A stretch of DNA of 64,000 bases from Chryseobacterium tructae (lineage in GTDB: Bacteria; Bacteroidota; Bacteroidia; Flavobacteriales; Weeksellaceae): assembly GCF_030409875.1 (NCBI RefSeq), contig NZ_JAUFQR010000001.1, positions 4,402,001 through 4,466,000 of the forward strand, read 5' to 3'. Both the position numbers and the translations under genes were made by a program. The notes under the pieces were generated by a model. That model was not told the origin of the DNA. It ran no database searches and was given only the letters and a program-made list of their open reading frames with translations. This document shows, piece by piece, positions 36,759-63,868 of the stretch (position 1 is its first letter; each line of letters opens with the position of its first letter).

Positions 36759-38296
36759 CTACTTTTCCGGTATTACCTTATACGTAGGGTCTTCCTGAAT
36801 ATTGACTTCTACTACGGCTTCGGCATTTTGTAACATTTTGCGGCAGTCTTCACTAAGATGACGAAGTAATATTATTTTTCCTTGCTGTTTGTATCGTTTT
36901 GACAATTTATCTACTGCATCAATGGCACTCATATCTACAATACGGCTTTCCTTAAAGTCTACAACAACTTCTTCAGGATCATTCATAGGATCAAATTTAT
37001 CAGCAAAGGCCGTTGCAGAGCCAAAAAATAATGGGCCATATATTTCGTAATGCTTAACACCATTATCATCAGTATATTTTTTGGCACGGATTCTCTTGGC
37101 ATTATCCCATGCAAAAACTAAAGCGGAAATAATCACTCCTACCAACACAGCAAGGGCAAGATTATGCAGAAGTACGGTAATTAAGGCTACGGTAACTCCC
37201 ACAAATATGTCCGACTTCGGCATTTTATTCACAATTCTAATCGAAACCCACTGAAAGGTACTGATAGCCACCATCATCATTACCCCTACTAAGGCCGCCA
37301 TCGGAATTTTCTCAATGATTGGTGCTCCAAACAGAATAATCAATAAGATCATGATAGAAGCAATAATTCCCGACAGGCGTGCTCTGGATCCCGCGTTCAG
37401 ATTCACTAATGTCTGGGCAACCATTGCGCATCCTCCCATTCCACCAAAAACCCATTGGTAATATTAGCTAATCCCTGTGCTACTGATTCTTTGTTGGCAC
37501 TTCCTTTCGAATTGGTAATCTCATCCACCATAGATAAAGTTAACAATGATTCAATAAGACCTACCCCAGCCATAATTAAGGCATAGGGGAAAATTATCTG
37601 CAGGGTTTCCAGAGAGAAAGGAATCTGTGGGATATGAAAACTTGGAAGATTGCCACTGATATGTGCAATATCTGCTACGGTTTTCGTCGGAATATTAAAT
37701 CCAAGAACTACAGCAAATACAACAATAATAGCAGCCAAAGAAGCAGGAACGGTTTTGGTGAGTTTTGGAAAGAAGTAGACTACGGCAATAGTAAGTGCCG
37801 TTAAACCTCCCATAATGTATAAAGGTACTCCCTGAAGCCAGTTTACAACTCCATTGGCATTTGTAATTTTAAACTGCTCAACCTGCGCCATAAAAATAAT
37901 GATTGCCAATCCGTTCAGGAATCCATACATAACCGGTTGTGGAATAAGCCTTACAAATTTGCCTAGTTTAAAAACCCCAACAAGTATCTGAAGTATTCCA
38001 GCCAAAGCTACTGTAGCAAAAAGGTATTCGATCCCGTGAGATTTTATGAGCGCAATCAAAACTACAATCGTTGCTCCGGCTCCTCCTGAAACCATTCCCG
38101 GCCGGCCTCCCAAAACAGCTGTTACCAACCCCATCAGACAGGCAGCATACAATCCGGTAAGGGGCGAGAGCCCTGCCAGAATTGCAAATGAAAGCGATTC
38201 GGGAATCATGGTCATAGCTACCGTAAAGCCTGCCAATAGTTCATTTTTATAATTTATTTTCTTCGATAAATCGAATAAGCTGATTGTATTTTTCAT
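36759..38296 (-). CDS. SulP-family inorganic anion transporter (512 aa restored; one-base frameshift)
   Basis: Sulfate/bicarbonate-type permease: about 10-12 membrane helices and a C-terminal STAS domain (VDFKESRIVDMSAIDAVDKLSKRY). Seen: AGFTVAMTMIPESLSFAILAGLSPLTGLYAA (SulP signature), FLNGLAIIIFMAQVEQF, and GGMGGCAMVAQTLVNLNAGSRARLSG. The frame breaks at 37446-37450: GGGTTTTTGG should have six T (GGGTTTTTTGG), restoring ITNGFFGGMGGCAM. As read the pieces are 37406-38296 and 36759-37439. No regulator adjoins. Confidence 0.92.
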
Positions 38297-38906: not shown

Positions 38907-39332
38907 ATGTTATACAAAGAAATCCATATTGGAAAGTTTATTAAGGAGAGGGTTGATGAAAATGAAATAACCATGGAGAGGATATGTAAATTCCTGGACA
39001 AAGATGAAGATGCTATAGAAAGGATGTACAACAGTAGATCAATAGAAGTGGATCTTCTCCTGAGATGGAGTAAATTATTAGAATATGATTTTTTCAGGCT
39101 CTATAGTTCACATTTAATTTTATATGCTCCGCCTGCAGCAGCCAATAAAAGTCCGCAAAAATCTGACAAGATCCCTTACTTCAGAAAAAACATTTATACT
39201 CAGGAAATTAAAGAATTCATCATGAAAAGGATTCTTTCGGGGGAAATGACGCAGAGTGATGTCATTAAGGAGTATTCTATTCCTAAAAGCACCCTTCACA
39301 GGTGGCTTCAGAAAACGGATATTAACGGATAA
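38907..39332 (+). CDS. HTH-domain protein, regulator or transposase-derived (141 aa)
   Basis: Two parts: residues 1-70 (EIHIGKFIKERVDENEITMERICKFLDKDEDAIERM) look like an XRE-type HTH, and the C-terminal part carries a transposase-type HTH, FIMKRILSGEMTQSDVIKEYSIPKSTLHRWLQKTD. No catalytic domain, so it is not an active transposase by itself. It precedes a related HTH gene by 11 bp; the pair ends at a strong terminator. Confidence 0.75.
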   Translation: MLYKEIHIGKFIKERVDENEITMERICKFLDKDEDAIERMYNSRSIEVDLLLRWSKLLEYDFFRLYSSHLILYAPPAAANKSPQKSDKIPYFRKNIYTQEIKEFIMKRILSGEMTQSDVIKEYSIPKSTLHRWLQKTDING

Positions 39333-39343
39333 ATTAACAAGAG

Positions 39344-39694
39344 ATGCGTCCCAATTATAAAAAGATATACCTGGACATGCTCAAAATGGAGTATCCTGAT
39401 AAACTAAAAGATCCTAAGATAAAGGAACTTCTCGGAAAGCTGGATACCAGTGAAGATGTACTGAAGTTCAATGACAGACTTTTCAAACCTTCTAAGGAAA
39501 GCCAGAGAAACAATCAAAAACTTAAGACTTACGACAAAAAAACGATGCTTAAGCTTCTTGAATATCAAAAGAAGCATGGTCATTCTACCAGTTATATGTC
39601 TAAAAAATACAAGATAAGCAGAACAACTCTCTCAAAATGGAAACTCATGTTTGAGGAAGAGCTGGATGATGCCATGAAAAAAGCCGATAAATAG
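39344..39694 (+). CDS. HTH-domain protein (116 aa)
   Basis: Charged helical N-terminus (MRPNYKKIYLDMLKMEYPDKLKDPKIKELLGKLDT) and a C-terminal HTH of transposase/Trp-repressor type: TMLKLLEYQKKHGHSTSYMSKKYKISRTTLSKWKLMFEEEL. The second HTH protein of the pair, probably a DNA-binding partner of the first. Its stop is inside the terminator stem. Confidence 0.75.
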   Translation: MRPNYKKIYLDMLKMEYPDKLKDPKIKELLGKLDTSEDVLKFNDRLFKPSKESQRNNQKLKTYDKKTMLKLLEYQKKHGHSTSYMSKKYKISRTTLSKWKLMFEEELDDAMKKADK

Positions 39695-39709
39695 TATATC
39701 GGCTTTTTT
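39677..39709. terminator. Rho-independent terminator (bidirectional)
   Basis: Perfect 13-bp stem AAAAAAGCCGATA (39677-39689) / TATCGGCTTTTTT (39697-39709), loop of 7, T-tracts both ways. On the + strand it ends the HTH pair, on the minus strand it follows the Y7 RNA element. Confidence 0.9.
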
Positions 39710-39710
39710 T

Positions 39711-39838
39711 ATAAGGTAATAATAAGAAAAACTCGGGGCACACGTAAGCCGGAGTCGAACCGGATAGCCTTGCCGGAGTAACCGACTTCGCTATTCCTCC
39801 CCAATAGGTACGATGAAGTTTTTTCTAACGACACTTAT
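39711..39838 (-). ncRNA. Y RNA-like element Y7
   Basis: Minus-strand RNA of about 128 nt. Lower stem ATAAG/CTTAT (39834-39838 with 39711-39715), bulged U, GU/AC pair, CGUUA motif, then upper stem AGAAAA(A)ACT/AGTTTTTCT (39817-39826 with 39725-39733, one bulge). The apical part has a T-arm (CCGG-loop-CCGG, 39749-39763) with the TTCGA loop sequence and a D-loop-like AGTCGGTTA (39779-39787), so it is tRNA-like, but here in D-then-T order. A bidirectional terminator follows at 39677-39709. Confidence 0.7.
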
Positions 39839-40000
39839 CATTTAGAAAGGAAGCTGGAAGTGGGAAGAAAGGAGGTTGTTAAAGTCTGAAAGAATAACTT
39901 GTCGGACTTTTTAGAAAATTACGATACAAAGATGAGTTCTTCCTCCCCGCTTTTGGCTTCGTTTATTTAATTTTTTGTAAATATTTTATTTTAAATAATA

Positions 40001-40140
40001 AAACAAGGCGACAGGTAAATAGTGATGTCGTGCTCTAACCAGCTGAGCTACTCTTCCTGTATTTTGAGTGGAAGAGACGGGACTCGAACCCGTGACACCG
40101 TCGTGATGAATGAAGTAGCACTATTCTACGGCACTTGTTT
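40001..40140 (-). ncRNA. Y RNA-like element Y6 with permuted tRNA module
   Basis: About 140 nt. Lower stem AAACAAG/CTTGTTT (40134-40140 with 40001-40007), bulged U, GC/GC, CGUAG motif, upper stem AATAGTG/CACTATT (40119-40125 with 40018-40024). Apex, 5' to 3': T-arm ACGGG-TTCGAGT-CCCGT (40077-40093), 7-bp perfect acceptor-like stem CTCTTCC/GGAAGAG (40070-40076 with 40051-40057) capped by a 12-nt loop, TA, D-arm GCTC-AGCTGGTTA-GAGC (40032-40048). That is the exact geometry of tRNA T-arm/acceptor/D-arm, cut open at the anticodon side. It lies 50 bp after the SUKH gene stop. Confidence 0.82.
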
Positions 40141-40189
40141 GTTTTTATTTTTCTTCTTCAGCTATATAGGCTTTAACGATAGGATGAAC

Positions 40190-40984
40190 TCAGGATTTTT
40201 CAGGGTGATACCTTAACCCAAAACTACTCCAACCAGAAGACCAATAGAGAATTCTTTCTTTCAGACAAGGAATATCTTTGGTTTCATCATATTTAAAATT
40301 TTCATCAAATATTTGCTGAACCTCATCAATAAGTTCCGGATAAAACATTTGGTCTTCTTCATCAAAGACCTCTATATGAATATCAAGATGACTCATTAGC
40401 TCATTTAATAAATAAGTTCTGAAATCCCAGCCCATAACAATAATATCAGAAGACCCCATAGAAATAATTGGCTTCCATTTAAGATTTTCATCGCTTACAA
40501 TATATCGAAAACCCGTCAAAGGTAAAAGAGCCGGAACATGAGAAAACCATTCTTCAAAAATTTCTATTCTCTTATCCAAAGATTCAGGTTTTAATCCCCA
40601 CGACTTCAGCCAAACCTGACTTTTTTCATCAACATCGTACTTCAGCCAATTATAAGAGCTTTTTATTATTTCCTCAACTTCCTTTTCATCAGCAAGCCAA
40701 TTATAGAAAAAAGAACATTCTTCTATAATCAGTTCTCCTTCATCTTCATATTCAACAATTTCTTTTTTGTCGATAGTATGAAGAATTTTTAGAAATTCTT
40801 TGTGTTCAGGTGTAAAACTGACCTCATATTTTCTCTCAACCTGATCAATCTGCTCTTCAGAAAGCCCTTGCCATCTGGCACCATAAAATCCTTTAGGACA
40901 ATTTTCATCATCTACAGACCACAATTTTTCTGTACGTTCTTTGACCCAGTATAAAAATTCAGTCAGATTACTTGGTATATCCAT
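40190..40984 (-). CDS. SUKH (SMI1/KNR4)-like protein (264 aa)
   Basis: SUKH fold: GLSEEQIDQVERKYEVSFTPEHKEFLKILHTID (N-terminal helix pair of the SMI1/KNR4 family), AFLPLTGFRYIVSDE-type central strand (here LLPLTGFRYIVSDENLKWKPIISMGSSDIIVMGWDFRTYLL), and an acidic C-terminal half. SUKH proteins are often immunity or regulatory adaptor proteins. It is embedded in the Y RNA array: Y5 precedes it by 22 bp and Y6 follows by about 50 bp, on one strand. No toxin gene adjoins. Confidence 0.72.
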   Translation of the reverse strand: MDIPSNLTEFLYWVKERTEKLWSVDDENCPKGFYGARWQGLSEEQIDQVERKYEVSFTPEHKEFLKILHTIDKKEIVEYEDEGELIIEECSFFYNWLADEKEVEEIIKSSYNWLKYDVDEKSQVWLKSWGLKPESLDKRIEIFEEWFSHVPALLPLTGFRYIVSDENLKWKPIISMGSSDIIVMGWDFRTYLLNELMSHLDIHIEVFDEEDQMFYPELIDEVQQIFDENFKYDETKDIPCLKERILYWSSGWSSFGLRYHPEKS

Positions 40985-41005
40985 TGTTATTAATTTTAAA
41001 AATAA

Positions 41006-41105
41006 AAAGAGGCAAGATTCGAAAAGACTTGTACAAGATCACTTTCATGACCTTCTGGAGTTGAACCAAATTAAACCGAAGTAAGCCTTTTCTACGGCAC
41101 TCTTT
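41006..41105 (-). ncRNA. Y RNA-like element Y5
   Basis: About 100 nt. Lower stem AAAGAG/CTCTTT (41100-41105 with 41006-41011), bulged U, GC/GC, CGUA motif, upper stem GAAAAG/CTTTTC (41087-41092 with 41021-41026). Apex: T-arm-like TTTGG-TTCAACT-CCAGA (41054-41070) and a short hairpin GGTCA/TGATC; no acceptor or D-arm. Ends in a T-rich tract. It begins 9 bp after Y4 ends, so both are probably processed from one precursor. Confidence 0.75.
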
Positions 41106-41114
41106 CTTATATAC

Positions 41115-41260
41115 AAATCAGGGTAATTTTTTTAGAATCGTTCATGCATTTGCTCTACCTGCTGAGCTACCTCTCCTTTTCGAGGGAAAAGGCAGGATTC
41201 GAACCTGCGACCCAATGTTTATTCAATCTCGAAGTATGATTCTATGACGACACCTGATTT
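41115..41260 (-). ncRNA. Y RNA-like element Y4 with permuted tRNA module
   Basis: About 146 nt. Lower stem AAATCAGG/CCTGATTT (41253-41260 with 41115-41122), bulged U, GU/AC, CGUCAU motif, upper stem AGAATC/GATTCT (41238-41243 with 41134-41139). Apex, 5' to 3': T-arm GCAGG-TTCGAAT-CCTGC (41192-41208), acceptor-like stem CTTTTCC/GGAGAGG (41185-41191 with 41170-41176, seven pairs including G-U) capped by an 8-nt loop, TA, D-arm GCTC-AGCAGGTA-GAGC (41152-41167). A near-complete tRNA body joined at the acceptor ends. Confidence 0.84.
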
Positions 41261-41316
41261 TTAACTTTTTCATTTGTATTCGTTTCAAGTAAGATCCCTT
41301 ATGAACATTTGAAAAC

Positions 41317-41445
41317 AGCAAGGCAATCAGTCAAACAGACTCGTATTAACGGTGTGCTATCTTTACACCACGTACTTCCGCACAACAGGACTTGAACCTA
41401 TACCTCTGTTACCCCACGAAGTAATTCTGTTTTACGGCACTTGCT
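41317..41445 (-). ncRNA. Y RNA-like element Y3
   Basis: About 129 nt. Lower stem AGCAAG/CTTGCT (41440-41445 with 41317-41322), bulged U, GC/GC, CGUA motif, upper stem AAACAG/CTGTTT (41427-41432 with 41333-41338). Apex: T-arm ATAGG-TTCAAGT-CCTGT (41385-41401) and a hairpin GGTGT/ACACC in D-arm position (41351-41369); the acceptor-like stem is weak. It begins directly after the 73-aa gene's stop (41447), so it is encoded in that transcript. Confidence 0.77.
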
Positions 41446-41446
41446 T

Positions 41447-41668
41447 TTAATTTTTCCATTGGGTTCTTCTGTATTTCTTCCAGTTTCGCTGAAACTTGGT
41501 ATCCTTTGCGTTTACCACTTCTAAACCATGTGGAAAACAATATGAACACCCCAGGTCATCTCCGTGTTGGATTCTTGAAATCTGTATGCCGGAAATTTTC
41601 TTCGGAAAATCAATCCATTCATCTTCATTGATTCCGAATTTTTGTCTTAATGTTTTAATTTTTTTCAT
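41447..41668 (-). CDS. Hypothetical protein (73 aa) in the Y RNA unit
   Basis: No family recognised. Basic, soluble, with a CSYCFPHG motif (Cys-x-x-Cys ahead of a His) at about residues 42-49 that could bind metal. It is the first gene downstream of the inverted-repeat promoter at 41747-41782, with a possible 13-codon leader frame at 41687-41728 in between, and Y3 begins within 2 bp of its stop. Position in an RNA operon suggests an RNP-related role, but only by context. Confidence 0.55.
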   Translation of the reverse strand: MKKIKTLRQKFGINEDEWIDFPKKISGIQISRIQHGDDLGCSYCFPHGLEVVNAKDTKFQRNWKKYRRTQWKN

Positions 41669-41746
41669 GAGTATTGAGTATTAACCTCAATACACTGCTT
41701 CTTTAAGATCTGCTTTATAACTATTCATGGTTATTAGTTTATGTTA

Positions 41747-41782
41747 CAAATTTATAGGGTTACTGCGCATTCTTTTTACGCA
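41747..41782 (-). promoter_or_regulatory. Inverted-repeat promoter P3 (73-aa gene and Y3-Y7 unit)
   Basis: TGCGCA (41764-41769), 7-bp spacer, TACGCA (41777-41782), then 9 bp to the minus-strand -7 box TAAATTTG (41747-41754, exact TAnnTTTG). The repeat occupies the -33 region. The same layout occurs at 41964-41999 and 45993-46028. Confidence 0.78.
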
Positions 41783-41797
41783 GTTCTTTTTTTTATA

Positions 41798-41877
41798 AAA
41801 CCAAGCAATAAATCATAAGAGTAATTAATGTTTCAATTGGAAGTTGACGATGAAACTCTTATTAACGGCATTGGTTT
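41798..41877 (-). ncRNA. Y RNA-like element Y2
   Basis: About 80 nt. Lower stem AAACCAA/TTGGTTT (41871-41877 with 41798-41804), bulged U, GC/GC, CGUUA motif, upper stem ATAAGAG/CTCTTAT (41856-41862 with 41815-41821), then a small apical hairpin GTTTCA/TGAAAC. No tRNA-like module. It starts 5 bp after Y1 ends and precedes promoter P3 by only about 16 bp. Confidence 0.78.
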
Positions 41878-41882
41878 GTTTT

Positions 41883-41951
41883 TACTGGGTAATTTGACGA
41901 AAGACACTGTCAGTTTTGGAATCGAAGTAAGTCTTTCTGACGACACCGGTA
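41883..41951 (-). ncRNA. Y RNA-like element Y1
   Basis: About 69 nt, the shortest. Lower stem TACCGG/CCAGTA (41946-41951 with 41883-41888, one mismatch), bulged U, GU/AC, CGUCA motif, upper stem GAAAGAC/GTCTTTC (41931-41937 with 41899-41905), small apex. Its 5' end lies 13 bp past the -7 box of promoter P2, so it is very likely the first transcribed segment. Confidence 0.75.
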
Positions 41952-41963
41952 CTATTAACACTG

Positions 41964-41999
41964 CAAAATTACATTGCAGGTACGCATCCTTTTTACGTA
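41964..41999 (-). promoter_or_regulatory. Inverted-repeat promoter P2 (Y1-Y2)
   Basis: TACGCA (41981-41986), 7-bp spacer, TACGTA (41994-41999), then 9 bp to the minus-strand -7 box TAATTTTG (41964-41971). The predicted transcript start falls just ahead of the Y1 lower stem. Confidence 0.78.
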
Positions 42000-42009
42000 G
42001 TTTATTTTT

Positions 42010-42543
42010 TTAATAGGAAAATAATGATTTTATCAGTTCAAAAAATTTGACAACGCCTAAAATAGGAAGTGATATCAGAAATACTATCAATGCGGCAATA
42101 CATATTTTATTTACAAAACTTGCTGGGTTTTCAATTTCTGAATACTTTCCTTTCTCTCTGTTTTTAGGTTTAAAATCAGGAATATGCTTTGTTTTTTTGA
42201 GGCTATCTTTCTCAAGTTCAGCAAAAATATTCATGGCATATTCATTAAGCTGAGCCTTACTACCTCTGAAAACAATATCTTTTAAAATAGCATTTCCGGA
42301 ATTGCTTAATGTCTTTCTGTAAAGCTCAACAGCTTTTTCCATTTCCTCATTTTCAGGTTCAGACAAAATCCAGAACTTTCCGGCTTCATCAAGAAATCCT
42401 GCGTTATAATAAATCTGGCCTAATTTAGTTCTCAAAGAAAGATCATCTGGAAACTGATTGATTAAATTTCTTAATCTGTCACAAGCTTTTTTCTTTTTCC
42501 CTTCTTTCAGATCCAGTTCTACTTTATCAAACAAATTTCCCAT
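42010..42543 (-). CDS. DUF6584-like TPR protein with C-terminal membrane segment (177 aa)
   Basis: An N-terminal TPR-like helical unit (KVELDLKEGKKKKACDRLRNLINQFPDDLSLRTKLGQIYYNAGFLDEAGKFW) and a single C-terminal transmembrane segment (ICIAALIVFLISLPILGVVKFF). Matches the DUF6584 description as I know it; function unknown. Last protein gene before the Y RNA array, in an all-minus-strand set that starts at the Ro60 gene. Confidence 0.68.
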   Translation of the reverse strand: MGNLFDKVELDLKEGKKKKACDRLRNLINQFPDDLSLRTKLGQIYYNAGFLDEAGKFWILSEPENEEMEKAVELYRKTLSNSGNAILKDIVFRGSKAQLNEYAMNIFAELEKDSLKKTKHIPDFKPKNREKGKYSEIENPASFVNKICIAALIVFLISLPILGVVKFFELIKSLFSY

Positions 42544-43231: not shown

Positions 43232-43236
43232 TTATT

Positions 43237-43318
43237 AGCCCCGATTGCAGCGACATCCTTTTTCTGAATTGGCCTAAACCAGGGGAAAAAGATATAGCGG
43301 AAAGCGGGAAAAAGCTTC
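43237..43318. repeat. Dispersed flavobacterial intergenic repeat (one copy)
   Basis: Minus strand: GAAGCTTTTTCCCGCTTTCC at one end and GTCGCTGCAATCGGGGCT at the other, with a central inverted region. I recognise this as a sequence type repeated in many flavobacterial genomes; only one copy is in the window. Confidence 0.5.
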
Positions 43319-44414: not shown

Positions 44415-45931
44415 TTACAGCACTACTTTTTCAATCATTTCGATAGCTGATTTTTGATCTTCCAAGGCATTCAATACATCGAAAATCTTGTCTGACCAGC
44501 CCGCAATGAGATATACATCATTTCTTTTGACATCAATAGGCTGTCTGCCGTATCCTGCCAAATCAAAAATATAAAGTTTAGCATGAGGAGCTATCGTCTT
44601 ATACTTGCTCCATGTATCTTCAAAAGAGTTTCCTCTTCCGCTGCTATCCCACATTTGTGTATCGGTAAACAGCATTACTTTATCTACGATTTCTTTTCTT
44701 TTGATCAAATCTTCGATCACCAGATAACCATTCGTAGAGTATCCTACTTCGCCTTCTCGTTTGTAGAAGGCATCTACATTGTTCAGAATGCCTTGTTTGG
44801 GCATTGCAACACGCAACCATCGGTCACCAAAGATTCCTGTAGTCACATTCTGACACTTCGACTGTAGAATCATAGACATCAGTAAACCGATATCATACAA
44901 CAACACTTTGCTCTTAGGAGAAACCGATTTCTGCATAGAACCTGAAACATCGGCCGCAATCACTACCGAAGTACTGAATCCGAACCTTTGATATTTTGCG
45001 CACTTACCACTACAGCTTCTTCCAATGCACTCCAAACAGAGGATAGATAAGGGGAATCAATTTTTTTTAATTCTCTGTAGGCAGCCAGAAAGCGGAATGG
45101 CAATTGTTTTGAATTGCGCACTGCTTTTTCATCTGACAAATAACTACAAACCTTGCTCATGGCCTCAGGAGATACTCCTGCTTCAAGAATATTTCTTAGG
45201 TTTCGCAAAGTAGCCATATATCCTAGTTTATTACTGAAAATCAGTTCTTCCCATTTGCTTTTGAAAGCCTGTTTCTTTTCAGTTTCATTGGCAAATTTCG
45301 TCTGACCCAATACTGAAAGTTCTACTTCCCATGTATAAGGAGTTTCTAAAATATCATTGACAATCTTGTTGAAAGTAGTCTGTTGATTTTCATCTTTTGC
45401 TTTTGGATGAACCAGAAACAAAGCATCTTTTAAGGTTACTTCTCCTTTTCTGTTGTATTTAGCAAACTGATATTCATCAAATTTATTGAAAGATTTTACC
45501 AGACCTTTCTGGATTTGCTTTGACAATCTGTTCAGTTTTTTGGTATCTGCTCTTTCATTAGCGAGTTGATAATATGCTAGTAATTCTGTAATTTCATCAG
45601 CTCTCTGAACCACACCCTCTACAGTTCTACTCACCAGATCTGTACCGGAAGTTTCCTTCGCTAATTCTGTGGCTAAAACTAATGGAATGGAACGCAAATG
45701 CATATCTTTTCTTGCATATACAGCTAGCTTTGCAACAAATTCAGGATTATTTTTCTGAATCAGAGATTGTATTCTCTCTAATCTGTCATTTCCTTTTTCG
45801 TAAGTAATATCTGACAGTCCTGTTGTCACTACAGCACTGTACAATTCTTCTGCCGGTGTCATCACATATGCTTTCGCACCTTCGTGGTTGGTTACCTCTA
45901 TTTTTTCTTTTCTTAGAAAGTTAAATTTCAT
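44415..45931 (-). CDS. rsr: Ro60-like RNA-binding protein (TROVE + vWA; 505 aa restored; one-base frameshift)
   Basis: Ring-shaped Ro60 autoantigen orthologue that binds Y RNAs and misfolded RNAs and, in bacteria, tethers nucleases. The N-terminal part is a helical-repeat TROVE module (EFVAKLAVYARKDMHLRSIPLVLATELAKETSG), the C-terminal part a vWA domain with MIDAS motif DVSGSM (about residue 327) and MLFTDTQMWDSSG. The frame breaks at 44983-44984: minus strand AAAGGTTCGG should be AAAGGTTTCGG, restoring NIKGFGFSTSVVIAADVSGSM. As read the pieces are 44963-45931 and 44415-45035. The promoter with the shared inverted repeat is at 45993-46028. Confidence 0.93.
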
Positions 45932-45992: not shown

Positions 45993-46028
45993 CAAAGTAA
46001 GAACAGTATTACGCAGTCTTTTTGCGTA
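45993..46028 (-). promoter_or_regulatory. Inverted-repeat promoter P1 of the Ro60 unit
   Basis: TACGCA (46010-46015), 7-bp spacer, TGCGTA (46023-46028), then 9 bp to the -7-like box TTACTTTG (45993-46000; one mismatch to TAnnTTTG). The start codon of Ro60 follows 62 bp later. Confidence 0.78.
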
Positions 46029-46165
46029 GATTGTTTTTTTGAAAAAATTTTATTTTTTATTTCAAAAAGCTTAAAAAAGAGATTTGAAATTCTTGTAGAT
46101 TTTGCTGATGAGAGAGGTTTTTAAGTTTTGGCTAAAGCCAATGGAATTTGATGGTTTATTTGTTT

Positions 46166-49289: not shown

Positions 49290-50638
49290 TTAATGTACAA
49301 GATTTATTATTTTCTTTACTGCCAGAACATGTTTACAAGGCCCTCTTTCACCTTGATACTTGCTAAACCATTCACAGGTACAGCGTTCTTTATCTTCTTC
49401 AAGAATTACAGTATGATGTACTCCCGTGCCTTCTACCCTTGCCTCAGTTCTTTCTTTAGTATTATTTAAAATTTCCACTTTCCCATCTTCAATTAGCTTT
49501 TCGGCATTTTTCATGCGAGGGTTCAAACCTAAGATACGACTTAACTTAAAAGGTAATCGGCGGTAGAAAAATTCATTTTCATCAAGGTCATATCCGAGTA
49601 AGCCCATTGCGGCCAATCTTTTTGTTAAATGATCTGTTTTGCTCAAACTAAGATTCTCTTCTATTGCCAGAGTTGTTGCATTGAATGACTGATTGGCATA
49701 AGCATATTTATCTAATGCATCCATCCATTCATCAGGGATTTCAGTTGTAAGGCTGTTCAATACAGCACCTTCGCCTGAGAATCCACGCCAGCTTTCTCTT
49801 GATAAAGAAAAACTGAATCTTATATTTCCCATATAAAGCTGCCAGGTCGTAGATTGCATATTCGGATGTGGAAATACCTGCATAGCATCAATATAAGGAA
49901 GCAGAGGCTCCAGCAAACGAAGCCTGTGAAGGCCTCCAATACAAACTGCATCAATCGATCTTACCGGAGAAACATAGGTTTATTCCCTCTTACTATCAGG
50001 TAATAATCGGACTTCACGACCCCTTTCGGCATTCCTCTGAACAACTGTTGGGTCTGAATCTTATTAAAGGTATGTTGTTTTTCAGATTCGGAAAGATAAA
50101 TTTGTACTGTTCCCAGACCTTTGATCCATTTTATCGGTAGCGGAACTTTTCTTTCCACTACTTTTTTTTCTTCTTTATACAGTCCTACTTCTTTTTCTCC
50201 CACAGAAAGCATGATCTGTTCATTAGGACGAATGCTTCCCAAAGCAGTGATCATCGTCTGATTAAAATCTACATTGGTTGTTCCGTTTTCTAGAAACTCA
50301 CCATCCAATCCGCCAGGAAGGACATCCACACGGGCATATACTCCGGCACAATGAGAAAAACCTTCAAAACGAAGTCTTTCATTCCCCGCAGTCACGATCG
50401 GGTCTTTAAGAAGTGTCATTTGAAATGGTGATAGACTGAAACTCGATTTCACAATATTGGAAAGTGTAATCAGGCAACGAGCCAATATAAAAGGTTGTTT
50501 CACATTCCCCCAGAAAAAACAGGGGACATCCGTTTTTTTCTGTATCTCGCTGTATTGCGCAAGAAACAGTTCTTCAAGAGCATCTTTCTTTACGAATGAG
50601 GATGATCTTGAATAATTATAAGTAAGCATATCTTCCAT
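49290..50638 (-). CDS. SWIM zinc-finger protein (449 aa restored; one-base frameshift)
   Basis: A C-terminal SWIM zinc finger: CTCEWFSKYQGERGPCKHVLAV (Cys-x-Cys...Cys-x-His). The upstream part is a conserved domain found in SWIM-operon proteins (LTYNYSRSSSFVKK..., PCFFWGNVKQPFILARCL). The frame breaks at 49970-49972: CCTATGTTTCTCC should be CCTATGTTTTCTCC, joining GNKPMFSPVRSIDAVCIGGLHRLRLLEPL. As read the pieces are 49961-50638 and 49290-49916. It closes an operon with the two DUF6493-type genes; these sets are sometimes found with MoxR ATPases and vWA proteins, but neither is here. Confidence 0.88.
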
Positions 50639-62092: not shown

Positions 62093-63034
62093 TTAATTTT
62101 GAAATGCTTGATAAAAAGCAGTTTCAATTTCTTGTTGATCGTTTTCAGTATATCTTCTTGAAAAGTGAATCGGAATGGCCTCTTTTACCTTGCACTCATT
62201 CATAATTTTTCCTGATGCAGAGGCAAAACTGTGATAATTAATCTTTGCAAATTCCTGATCCGAATCCTTGTAAAATGTTTCAATATAGACTTTATCTGCA
62301 TTATTGAAGACTTCTTTTATCTTTTTATAATTGTCTTCATCAGCAGCATGATCCATGATTACTCCTAATTTGTAACCTTCATTTCTGGTCAGCAAATGAA
62401 ACAAATCTGATGCTTTATACAAAGTTCCTTCTATTTCAATTTCTTTATCCGAGTCATTATTTTCAAAGGCTGCTTTCAGTTCACTGATCCATTTTCCTTT
62501 CTTAAAATCAGAAGCATTTTCATGAAAAGTAACAGTATCCTTTTCTTTAAACAGGTACGCAATGGAATCTGTTTTGTGATCCAGAATGGCAAAATCTACA
62601 TTTACATATTCATCTTCAAAAAGGAAATGCTGAGTCTTTACATATTCAATATTCCAGTAAGGAGGACGAATTGCATAAACCTTAATTTCTTCCTTGGAAA
62701 TAATTTCATGGATTTGATATTCAATTGCATTTTCATCTATTAAATTCCACGTGTAAGATTTTAATCTTGCTCCAATTTGTTCATGAATATTTTGCGGCCC
62801 GCAGATAATCACTTTTTCTCCACTTCCAATCTGATGTCTGAAAATACCATCAAAATTGGCAAAATGATCGATATGGGTATGGCTGATGAATATCGCTGAT
62901 ATTGTCTGCGCTTCCTTTACCGTTAATAAACTTGCTTCTCCGCAATCACATAAATAGTGCTTTGCTGAGTTGGGAACTTTTATTAATATACTGATGTCTT
63001 CTTTTAAAAGACTTTTTATTTCTGCTTGTAACAT
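62093..63034 (-). CDS. RNase Z-like MBL-fold hydrolase (313 aa)
   Basis: MBL nuclease fold: HTHIDHFANFDGIF (the HxHxDH motif intact), LCDCGEASL, VIMDHAAD and, near the end, AIPIHFSRRYTEND, the HFS(x)RY motif typical of tRNase Z. It lacks the flexible-arm segment of canonical RNase Z and is probably a paralogue. The ATG at 63034 (MLQAEIKSLL) is preferred over the frame start at 63064. It is between the RNA ligase and a phosphoesterase on one strand. Confidence 0.86.
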   Translation of the reverse strand: MLQAEIKSLLKEDISILIKVPNSAKHYLCDCGEASLLTVKEAQTISAIFISHTHIDHFANFDGIFRHQIGSGEKVIICGPQNIHEQIGARLKSYTWNLIDENAIEYQIHEIISKEEIKVYAIRPPYWNIEYVKTQHFLFEDEYVNVDFAILDHKTDSIAYLFKEKDTVTFHENASDFKKGKWISELKAAFENNDSDKEIEIEGTLYKASDLFHLLTRNEGYKLGVIMDHAADEDNYKKIKEVFNNADKVYIETFYKDSDQEFAKINYHSFASASGKIMNECKVKEAIPIHFSRRYTENDQQEIETAFYQAFQN

Positions 63035-63050
63035 TGTTTCTTTCTTTTTA

Positions 63051-63140
63051 AACCACCCCGTCAAAAATTTTTAATTTTTGCCACCCCTCCAATGGAGGAA
63101 AATTTTCACGTCTTCAATTGAGATTTTTGTGAAAATTATG
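63051..63140. repeat. CCACCCCGTC-type intergenic repeat, copy 2
   Basis: ACCACCCCGTCAAAAATTTT...TTTTTGCCACCCCTCC and a CTTCAATTGA tail, the same layout as 61999-62085 with a different inner palindrome. REP/MITE-like. Confidence 0.75.
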
Positions 63141-63188
63141 AATATTCAAAGAATCTCCTCAAGGTATGGTTGAGTTTACATATAAAAA

Positions 63189-63216
63189 AGTTCCGGTAAA
63201 ATAAATTACCGAAACT
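63189..63216 (-). terminator. Rho-independent terminator
   Basis: AGTTCCGGTAA (63189-63199) / TTACCGAAACT (63206-63216), one mismatch, followed on the minus strand by TTTTTT. It ends the RNA ligase transcript 10 bp after the stop. Confidence 0.82.
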
Positions 63217-63226
63217 TCATCTTTAT

Positions 63227-63817
63227 TTAAACAATAAGTTCTTTTATCGCTTTTCTATGTATACCAAAATCAGATTTCCTGATCTTACACATACGATTAT
63301 CCGCTGTATGATGGAAAACAATACCTTCCATATTATTCTCAGGATTGCTCAAAAAGTTTTTGATACATTCAAAATCCAAACTTTCTAAACTCAGAATATT
63401 ATTTCCGTGTTTTACTAATAAATGACCTTTAATATTTTCAGGGTTTCCCTGTACTTTCTCACCAATAAGTTCGTAAGTCCCCTCTTCTACTTTGCCCGAT
63501 TCGGCCAATGCATTGAACCCTTCCCAGAAGTACTGGTCATCTTTTTTCTCCATGCTACACTCTACCCAATGCGGATGATGGCCTGTAGTAAGATCTGCTT
63601 CCTGACATGGAATTGCACCTTCAGGAGCTGTTTTACCTTTTTTGGCATCGTATCTTTTGTATAATTTACCATTGATCACTGCACATGCAGAACCATCAAA
63701 CTTTTGCGTAGCAATAGCTTTTCCATCAAAAACCCAATTGTTTTCAGGATTAATTTCGTTAATAACTCGTCCTAAATTATTTATATCTTTTTTGAATAAT
63801 GTACTTATCTTTTTCAT
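63227..63817 (-). CDS. RNA ligase (DUF5565-type; 196 aa)
   Basis: Covalent nucleotidyltransferase ligase fold. Seen: ATQKFDGSACAVINGKLYKRYDAKKGK (motif I K-x-D-G with the AMP-lysine, plus the KRYD segment), a likely motif III in TYELIGEKVQGNPENI, motif IV MEGIVFHH (E-G), and motif V CKIRKSDFGI (K-x-R/K). Members seal RNA ends. The ATG at 63817 (MKKISTLFKKD) gives the family start. It lies ahead of the RNase Z-like and phosphoesterase genes, forming an RNA-repair set. Confidence 0.86.
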   Translation of the reverse strand: MKKISTLFKKDINNLGRVINEINPENNWVFDGKAIATQKFDGSACAVINGKLYKRYDAKKGKTAPEGAIPCQEADLTTGHHPHWVECSMEKKDDQYFWEGFNALAESGKVEEGTYELIGEKVQGNPENIKGHLLVKHGNNILSLESLDFECIKNFLSNPENNMEGIVFHHTADNRMCKIRKSDFGIHRKAIKELIV

Positions 63818-63868
63818 TTTTAATTGCTTTAATGGCAAAAGCTCTTATTCATTGGCATCAATCCCAAA

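Follow-up and report, generated by a model that had tools for sequence, protein, structure and literature searches.

Bacterial Y RNAs have been described from few species, and the excerpted part of PMC4726728 names Deinococcus, Salmonella and Mycobacterium, with PNPase as the partner. The same excerpt terms bacterial Y RNAs not homologous with those of vertebrates, where the Ro site is a 7-bp helix with one bulged C, faced by a bulge on the other strand. Two Y RNAs, yrlB and yrlA, are named for Salmonella in the excerpt of PMC7790460. YrlA possesses D, T and acceptor arms and a head that binds PNPase (PMC8394870, excerpt), and it superposes on tRNA in circularly permuted form (PMC11472068, excerpt). 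The excerpt of a review (PMC11277228) states that Y RNAs are part of the Ro60 RNPs of B. thetaiotaomicron, and that commensal Ro60 RNPs, among them those of a Bacteroides, have been linked to autoimmunity.

The Ro60 locus and its array

The window, i.e., the whole 64-kb stretch of Chryseobacterium tructae DNA analysed, contains a putative Y RNA array of seven elements spanning 39707-41954 on the minus strand. The first-pass annotation had placed the array downstream of a Ro60 gene on the same strand, and the coordinates agree. The features of the locus are as follows, all on the minus strand.

62093..63838, minus strand: metallo-beta-lactamase-fold gene and RLIG1-like RNA ligase gene, upstream of Ro60 (Pfam)
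46012..46029, minus strand: operator-like motif in front of Ro60 (exact match)
44963..45931, minus strand: Ro60 (TROVE), N-terminal part of the broken frame (Pfam TROVE 1.5e-32)
44415..45035, minus strand: Ro60 vWA part, in another frame (Pfam vWA_Ro60 3e-6)
41964..42000, minus strand: operator-like motif and TAnnTTTG box before the first element (motif search)
41880..41954, minus strand: putative Y RNA 1 (Y1, class 1), short head without tRNA module, weak closing stem (R1 50.3 bits)
41796..41879, minus strand: putative Y RNA 2 (Y2, class 2), short hairpin head (R1 59.0 bits; class alignment)
41747..41783, minus strand: second copy of the motif and TAnnTTTG box, preceding the 73-aa ORF and Y3 (motif search)
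41447..41668, minus strand: 73-aa ORF inside the array (no Pfam match)
41314..41448, minus strand: putative Y RNA 3 (Y3, class 5), permuted tRNA-like head with capped acceptor (descriptor match and class fold)
41114..41261, minus strand: putative Y RNA 4 (Y4, class 0), permuted tRNA head with T-arm, capped acceptor and D-arm (class fold and Rfam YrlA match)
41003..41108, minus strand: putative Y RNA 5 (Y5, class 3), T-hairpin plus stem, without D-arm (R1 56.5 bits; class fold)
40190..40984, minus strand: 264-aa ORF inside the array (no Pfam match)
39999..40142, minus strand: putative Y RNA 6 (Y6, class 4), permuted tRNA head with 5-bp T-stem, 7-bp acceptor and 4-bp D-stem (R1 49.0 bits)
39707..39842, minus strand: putative Y RNA 7 (Y7, class 6), T-hairpin head in non-permuted order, GGGG...CCCC (R1 50.2 bits; class fold)

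Between 39600 and 42100, TG[CT]CGT occurs exactly seven times on the minus strand (13 matches on the minus strand and 12 on the plus strand across the window), and all seven matches possess a closing stem and a second stem, so that the annotated set of seven minus-strand elements with one common architecture is upheld. Y1 was entered into the clustering by hand and assigned to class 1 by that clustering; only 5/7 pairs of its closing stem form, yet it scores as listed with the covariance model R1. This model was built from joined arms, its E-values come from a shortened calibration, and five elements of the window belonged to its training set. At default filters R1 matches 5/7 elements in the window, with no match to Y3 or Y4, and with filters off two are matched strongly. 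Elements are apparently missed because long heads exceed the reach of the model, and genome tallies made with R1 are therefore lower bounds. In the whole genome to which the window belongs, R1 gives 3 matches, all at the Ro60 locus.

The Ro60 frame is broken within 44963-45035. Among the matches listed, Ro60 of relatives is a single open frame, often of 506 aa; the frame is intact in the relative at locus L005 and broken, at a different position, in the near relative at L003. Because the sulfate-permease gene of the window is split as well as Ro60, assembly indels are likely, and they are the likely cause of the broken frame; a dying Ro60 locus could instead be responsible. Upstream of Ro60, the metallo-beta-lactamase-fold gene was found at 22/80 loci and the RLIG1-like ligase at 14/80, counts that include loci with less than 10 kb of upstream sequence. 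PADLOC gave no match to Ro60, and the SWIM gene alone matched among ten proteins.

Covariation of the handle and classes of heads

In the shared handle a closing stem is followed by a single bulged U, another two pairs, CGU and a second stem, on which the variable head sits. The bulged U and the UG[C/U]CGU motif of the first-pass annotation are both present but are not separate features, the bulged U being the first letter of the motif, and its next two letters, G and C/U, form pairs with the [G/A]C that precedes the 3' strand. A first descriptor search recovered 6/7 window elements, whereas shuffled strands gave 1.6 each on average; its extra matches, two on the minus strand (39536, 33508) and one on the plus strand, were taken as chance. 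In 36 gap-free cores, selected by pairing and left after manual removal of five from an original 41 (in some cases for an apparently out-of-register second stem), 88.5% of cells are paired compared with 64.0% when shuffled and at most 53.2% when slid, and the covariation score is 0.737 versus 0.257. Owing to that selection, a second set of 482 matches was collected with no criterion other than the motif of the 5' strand. Of these, 372 possess a perfect 6-bp partner carrying the matching purine and 26 one carrying the opposite purine, whereas controls gave 59 perfect partners with another member's 3' side and 10 when shuffled. Covariation of the handle is strong, also at one pair that was unused in finding the elements, and RNAalifold recovers the identical bulged stem unaided. 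The stems thus vary in sequence and still pair, as had been proposed, and the stems are conserved in relatives as well, a positive outcome for the annotation's own check. Folded singly, the elements reach only modest stability (z -0.43 to -3.23). The modelled closing stem is missing from the minimum-energy fold of 39842-39707, and the second stem from that of 40142-39999, in which the closing stem does form; the head structure of Y5 is recovered in its minimum-energy fold. Two features expected of a bacterial Y RNA, a conserved terminal stem with a bulge like that of the Ro60 site and a location beside the Ro60 gene, are therefore found here.

In the genus and its neighbours, the heads sort into 11 conserved classes, which include permuted tRNAs that, like YrlA, have no anticodon arm, T-hairpin types, plain hairpins and, in other species, a 23S rRNA-like head. 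The latter, found in 24/148 genomes of the genus, matches 25-33 nt of 23S rRNA in the helix 69-71 region, and its class carries a UAACUAUAA loop. Class 4 heads are 99.1% paired, with double changes at 15 pairs compared with 3.8 when shuffled. Double changes occur at 20/32 pairs of the class 5 fold (Y3, of which the window copy has a poor D-loop) and at 18/30 pairs of the class 6 fold (Y7), and class folds were obtained for the heads of classes 0, 3 and 5. Example members of classes 0, 4, 5, 9 and 10 score 50-72 in tRNA matching, compared with at most 42 in 200 shuffles, and those of classes 1, 2, 3, 6, 7 and 8 do not rise above shuffles. The heads could not be matched to single tRNA identities, no class among 0, 4, 5, 9 and 10 keeping one best isotype. 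Chen is said to have described, in 2014, a tRNA-like domain in at least one bacterial Y RNA of a locus; here such a domain is present in Y4 and Y6, and by class in Y3. Members with and without tRNA modules do lie side by side, Y3, Y4 and Y6 being permuted and tRNA-like, and Y1 and Y2 plain hairpins. The seven window classes keep their order: across 79 loci, 934 pairwise orders are as in the window and 33 are reversed.

Distribution, shared promoter motif and competing explanations

Among 148 genomes of the genus, the element is present in 96/105 Ro60-positive and 2/43 Ro60-negative genomes (Fisher 3e-25, a value that overstates independence because the genomes are related); the two Ro60-negative genomes with an element are 87% and 73% complete. 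Five of the nine Ro60-positive genomes without an R1 match were inspected (the other four being G017, G034, G063 and G133); four have arrays and one is a 3.5-kb contig. Among 296 genomes of the order, 22/25 Ro60-positive and 0/271 Ro60-negative genomes have the element, and a check that covered one of the three Ro60-positive misses, G324 (L234), gave R1 matches in a regional search. The co-occurrence check suggested with the annotation is thus positive at both levels. Arrays are present in 79/81 loci, with 2-13 members at 77 loci, and 284/456 gaps between neighbouring elements are shorter than 20 nt. In 20 further Ro60 regions of the phylum, judged by eye, 14 have three or more members and 6 have fewer. 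The annotation regarded a seven-member array as new; its size does look new, but it is not peculiar to this genome, being genus-wide with relatives in the phylum.

The promoter-linked motif common to Ro60 and the array is rare, with four exact copies in 5.6 Mb, three of them at the Ro60 locus, and two strict promoter modules lie within the array of the window. A TAnnTTTG box of its own within 80 nt upstream was not found before most elements: class 1 has 27 hits for 79 members and class 5 has 26 hits for 58 members, with hits rare in the other classes. Since the same motif is in both promoters, Ro60 and the RNAs would be made together.

We consider it probable, at roughly 0.86, that the seven elements are Y RNA partners of Ro60 with a common handle, separate heads serving as docking modules and a shared promoter motif. 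Co-occurrence, the same-strand downstream position, the bulged stem and permuted tRNA modules that match YrlA below threshold all support the Y RNA reading. The array would be driven by the two promoter modules that share the motif of the Ro60 promoter. Ro60 would grip the handle (a 7-9 bp helix, the bulged U, two pairs, an asymmetric loop and the second helix), leaving as docking modules the permuted tRNA mimics (Y3, Y4, Y6), T-hairpins (Y5, Y7) and plain hairpins (Y1, Y2). Ro60 would thereby form a family of RNPs in which heads may tether or present different partners, such as PNPase-like nucleases and tRNA enzymes, recruited for RNA decay or repair. More tentatively, and with somewhat less than even odds, Bacteroidota Ro60 loci may constitute an adapter library, in which one handle and lineage-conserved heads copying different RNAs (various permuted tRNA types, T-hairpins and, in some genomes of the genus, the 23S rRNA piece), all co-regulated with Ro60, aim this one ring protein at several RNA-processing machines or substrates.

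The heads might alternatively be decoys that mimic tRNA, or 23S rRNA in relatives, and absorb nucleases or modifying enzymes while Ro60 merely stabilises them, which we regard as unlikely. Differing tRNA-like heads side by side and the 23S-like head in relatives would suit decoys. However, the anticodon arm, the usual target of tRNA-attacking nucleases, is missing from the heads; class order is kept across many species, unlike in an arms race; and two window members have no mimic head. For YrlA, a similar idea involving an anticodon nuclease has been put forward (PMC7790460, excerpt). Decoys are compatible with the elements being Y RNAs.

It is improbable that the elements, instead of being free RNAs, serve the intervening small ORFs as structured 3' ends or as processing signals, a reading suggested by the 73-aa and 264-aa ORFs and by the finding of only two strict promoter modules in the array. 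Most inter-element gaps, at under 20 nt, are too short for an ORF; the ORFs are present in only 43/80 loci (inside the array in 37/43) and 18/80 loci (inside in 18/18), compared with arrays in nearly all; and the heads and the Ro60 co-occurrence would be left unexplained. Several copies with tRNA-like parts could also indicate a tRNA-derived repeat or mobile element family accumulated beside Ro60, which is very improbable given that every R1 match of this genome is at this locus, that class order and covarying stems are conserved, and that 41/43 (genus) and 271/271 (order) Ro60-negative genomes have no match. Least probable of all are permuted tRNA genes maturing into working tRNAs: a T-arm, 7-bp acceptor and D-arm do occur in permuted order, but the anticodon arm is absent, ARAGORN finds no tRNA within the window, and the genome has its own tRNA set.

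Significance and comparison with known systems

If the elements are Y RNAs, arrays of differing heads on one handle would make the question of what a head binds testable head by head in one organism, and the shared motif offers a route to the regulator and the inducing stress. Head diversity suggests an adapter set that could link one protein to different RNA-handling partners, and a 23S-like head would mean that Y RNAs mimic more than tRNA. Neither Y RNAs nor their mimicry of tRNA is new in itself. What looks new, against the open-licence literature, is the size of the array, the diversity of its heads, the rRNA-like head and the shared control; titles and abstract starts there yielded no earlier account of arrays like these or of a Y RNA resembling 23S rRNA.

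The elements resemble YrlA (Rfam RF02553; Salmonella, Deinococcus) in their Ro60 neighbourhood and in the long stem formed by paired ends. Y4 and Y6 further share its T-arm, loop-capped acceptor and D-arm, with the circular permutation seen in PDB 6CU1 (PMC11472068, excerpt). RF02553 matches both significantly (Y4, 36.6 bits, E 9.3e-6; Y6, 37.6 bits, E 4.7e-6), though under its gathering cut-off of 69 bits, at which nothing was found in the window or in 12 scanned of the 20 phylum regions; because scores fall below the cut-off, the elements are not filed under RF02553. Unlike YrlA, they form a seven-member array with differing heads, of which two are not mimics and one is an unpermuted T-hairpin; in the Y6 class most acceptor loops are long and rich in A, whereas the Rfam model has a short acceptor cap.

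The handle is also like the Ro60-binding stem of vertebrate Y RNAs, with a terminal helix of ~7 bp in which a single pyrimidine bulges out and the bases facing it are unpaired (PMC4726728, excerpt), but the bulge is a C there and a U here, with two covarying pairs above it. The Rsr-Y RNA-PNPase complex of Deinococcus, RYPER, would be a model for head-mediated tethering; the excerpts (PMC4726728, PMC8394870) name a single Y RNA in it. Finally, the rsr-yrlBA-rtcBA operon of Salmonella likewise brings Ro60, Y RNAs and an RNA ligase into one neighbourhood (PMC7790460, excerpt), whereas the ligase here is RLIG1-like and lies ~17 kb upstream, together with RNase_T-type exonuclease and metallo-beta-lactamase-fold genes.

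The array elements and their common handle

A pattern scan of the window for TG[CT]CGT gave exactly seven minus-strand matches within 39600-42100. This agrees with the first-pass annotation, which had described seven minus-strand elements with closing and second stems, and its placing of the array downstream of a Ro60 gene on the same strand holds for all seven. Y1 to Y7 each carry the motif and the stems.

41954-41880, minus strand: Y1, TG[CT]CGT and stems
41879-41796, minus strand: Y2, TG[CT]CGT and stems
41448-41314, minus strand: Y3, class 5, TG[CT]CGT and stems
41261-41114, minus strand: Y4, class 0, TG[CT]CGT and stems
41108-41003, minus strand: Y5, class 3, TG[CT]CGT and stems
40142-39999, minus strand: Y6, class 4, TG[CT]CGT and stems
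39842-39707, minus strand: Y7, class 6, TG[CT]CGT and stems

Judged from sequence, Y1 to Y7 are very probably Y RNAs. The nearest relatives of the window's Ro60 are Chryseobacterium records. The only solved structures matched by sequence to L005:10001-11518, in the Ro60 locus of a relative, were 9l5y and 9kop ('TROVE domain-containing protein', E 2e-27).

The common stem core, or handle, opens with a closing helix, followed by a single unpaired U, a G-C pair and then either C-G or U-A; CGU and a second helix come next, and after them usually UACUUCG. RNAalifold, given no structure, recovers the same bulged handle. Among 36 cores, which were selected through pairing and hand-trimmed so that their pairing counts are biased, 88.5% of handle cells are paired vs 64.0% with shuffled partners, and both-sided changes occur in 18/19 handle pairs. 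Two checks are free of this bias. The pair at motif position 3 was left out of the first scan's criteria; among 614 matches, some of which arose by chance, there are 250 with C-G, 239 with U-A, 29 with U-G, 16 with C-A and 80 that do not pair. When sites were chosen by the 5' strand alone, 372 of 482 could pair perfectly over 6 bp and had the matching purine; the same sites gave 26 with the wrong purine, 59 with another member's 3' side and 10 with a shuffled 3' side. The stems covary across elements, as had been proposed.

Arrays in relatives and co-occurrence with Ro60

A refined descriptor, which Y1 of the window escapes, was run on 81 loci: the window itself plus 80 named records, most of them from Chryseobacterium. 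The sequence downstream of Ro60, taken to a maximum of 5.1 kb per locus and adding up to 401 kb, yielded 566 forward elements. The remaining 1241 kb yielded 64 on the forward strand; there were 94 reverse-strand matches, and 1643 kb of shuffled sequence gave 86. The range is 2 to 13 members over the 77 loci with 3.5 kb or more of downstream sequence, 55 of which hold 5 to 8; chance at the background rate would give about 0.3 per locus. Clustering placed 535 of 567 sequences in 11 classes (0 to 10), each of at least 11 members. The commonest class string, 1 2 5 1 0 3 4 6, occurs in 5/79 loci, and the window's, 1 2 5 0 3 4 6, is second (4/79). Relative class order is conserved though exact strings vary, pairwise order agreeing with the window in 934 cases and being reversed in 33. 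One record titled as a Limnohabitans MAG (L080), probably mis-binned, has a Ro60 locus and array resembling Flavobacterium ones.

Co-occurrence with TROVE, the Pfam domain used as Ro60 marker, had been suggested as a check and is found at both genus and order level. R1, a covariance model built from the joined handle arms with five window elements in its training set, matches 98 of 148 genus genomes, and TROVE is present in 105: both occur in 96, TROVE alone in nine, the RNA alone in two and neither in 41 (R1 in 96/105 with TROVE vs 2/43 without). The two RNA-alone assemblies are 87% and 73% complete; of five TROVE-alone genomes inspected, four have arrays and one is a 3.5-kb contig. Of the 296 genomes of the order, 25 have TROVE and 22 have R1 matches, each of the 22 with TROVE as well (22/25 vs 0/271). 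In the phylum, TROVE is present in 28/395 genomes; among 20 Ro60 regions drawn from these 28, three of which belong to the order, manual reading of descriptor matches gave at least three members in 14, and R1 matched in 12. Some organisms appear both among the named records and among the genomes, so neither set is independent of the other.

A shared promoter motif and the surrounding genes

The sequence CTRCGYAAAWARNNTGCG has four exact copies in the 5.63-Mb genome.

Before Y1: exact copy
Before a 73-aa ORF and Y3: exact copy
Before Ro60: exact copy
G000 C1:4488382-4488399 (L242, window's genome), 22 kb past the window: exact copy, before ORFs of 153 aa and at least 350 aa

Allowing one mismatch adds a single fifth place, and the reversed pattern has one match in the genome at up to one mismatch. 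A looser form has 99 matches in the 158 kb of arrays from 79 loci; the other 1469 kb, read on the same strand, have 95. TAnnTTTG, which we take to be the Bacteroidota -7 box, follows 92 of these 99 array copies, at a spacing of 27-29 nt in 91 of the 92. The 81 loci hold 104 copies of the strict module, 94 of which fall in the array region; shuffled sequence holds none. A motif of like kind stands at the Ro60 promoter in the window and, among those listed, in six relatives. Because the motif is common to both kinds of promoter, joint regulation of Ro60 with the array is probable. Additional modules on the Ro60 strand 2.2-8.7 kb upstream in nine loci (L009, L010, L014, L018, L024, L035, L036, L041 and L076) hint at a wider regulon.

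The genes around Ro60 fit, by inference, a role in RNA repair or quality control.

Upstream of Ro60: SWIM, two DUF6493, PIF1-like, two RNase_T-type exonuclease, phosphoesterase, metallo-beta-lactamase-fold and RLIG1-like ligase genes
Downstream: TerD and phosphoribosyltransferase genes

The window's Ro60 frame is broken inside 44963-45035; it is intact in L005 and other relatives, and broken at another place in L003. A sulfate-permease gene, and possibly the SWIM gene, is also in pieces. The split regions (44963-45035, 36759-38296 and 49290-50638) look as in an assembly with indels. A Flavo-1 RNA (RF01705, 67.2 bits) lies at 43233-43315 on the plus strand, between two island genes and opposite to them in strand. 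Two small plus-strand genes with weak HTH matches (38907-39694) face the array end and are present in 58/80 loci; they may be regulators or transposase-like remnants. Just past the window, at C1:4470629-4472947 of the same genome, is a tRNA gene cluster with some members odd in sequence.

Variable heads and comparison with YrlA

The heads, the variable ends of the elements, differ between classes, and the earlier description of members with and without tRNA modules is borne out by Y4 and Y6, with permuted tRNA arms, and Y1 and Y2, with short heads (a small hairpin is seen in that of Y2). In class 4 (Y6), the arms stand in permuted order: a 5-bp T-stem, a 7-bp acceptor, two unpaired bases and a 4-bp D-stem, the acceptor ends being connected by a mostly long A-rich loop. 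Class 4 cells are paired in 99.1%, and in at most 54.5% after sliding the partners. Class 0 (Y4) has the same arms. Class 5 has an extra stem at the would-be start of the anticodon stem, and its copy in the window, Y3, has a poor D-loop. Class 3 (Y5) retains the T-hairpin and a stem; class 6 (Y7) has a T-hairpin, CCGG-UUCGACU-CCGG, after a two-part stem in unpermuted order, and a similar head occurs in two Ro60 loci (L223 and L225) of another family of the phylum.

Class 8, not present in the window's array, has members of about 208 nt in which a stretch after the handle matches the sense strand of the 23S gene of the window's genome (25-33 nt, 88-100% identity, 16/16), a gene recognised from its 6-7 copies and rRNA-like sequence. 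The matched stretch takes in the helix 69 loop and the strand after it. The motif occurs in 20/80 named loci (for example L009:13604-13833) and 24/148 genus genomes, all 24 with TROVE; the consensus fold has double changes in 13/61 pairs. Outside this stretch the head yielded no additional match to the same rRNA operon at E <=0.05, and Rfam LSU had no match in the single example scanned.

The boldest reading is that such arrays could be a library of adapters, the rRNA-like head included; it is testable, and we put it somewhat below even odds. Y RNAs are a known kind, among which a diverse-headed array under shared control looks new. The Rfam YrlA model, for the bacterial Y RNA with a permuted tRNA-like domain, gives E 9e-6 with Y4 and E 5e-6 with Y6, both well under its cut-off. 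Permuted tRNA mimicry is already known for YrlA (PMC11472068), which Y4 and Y6 resemble in carrying permuted tRNA arms.
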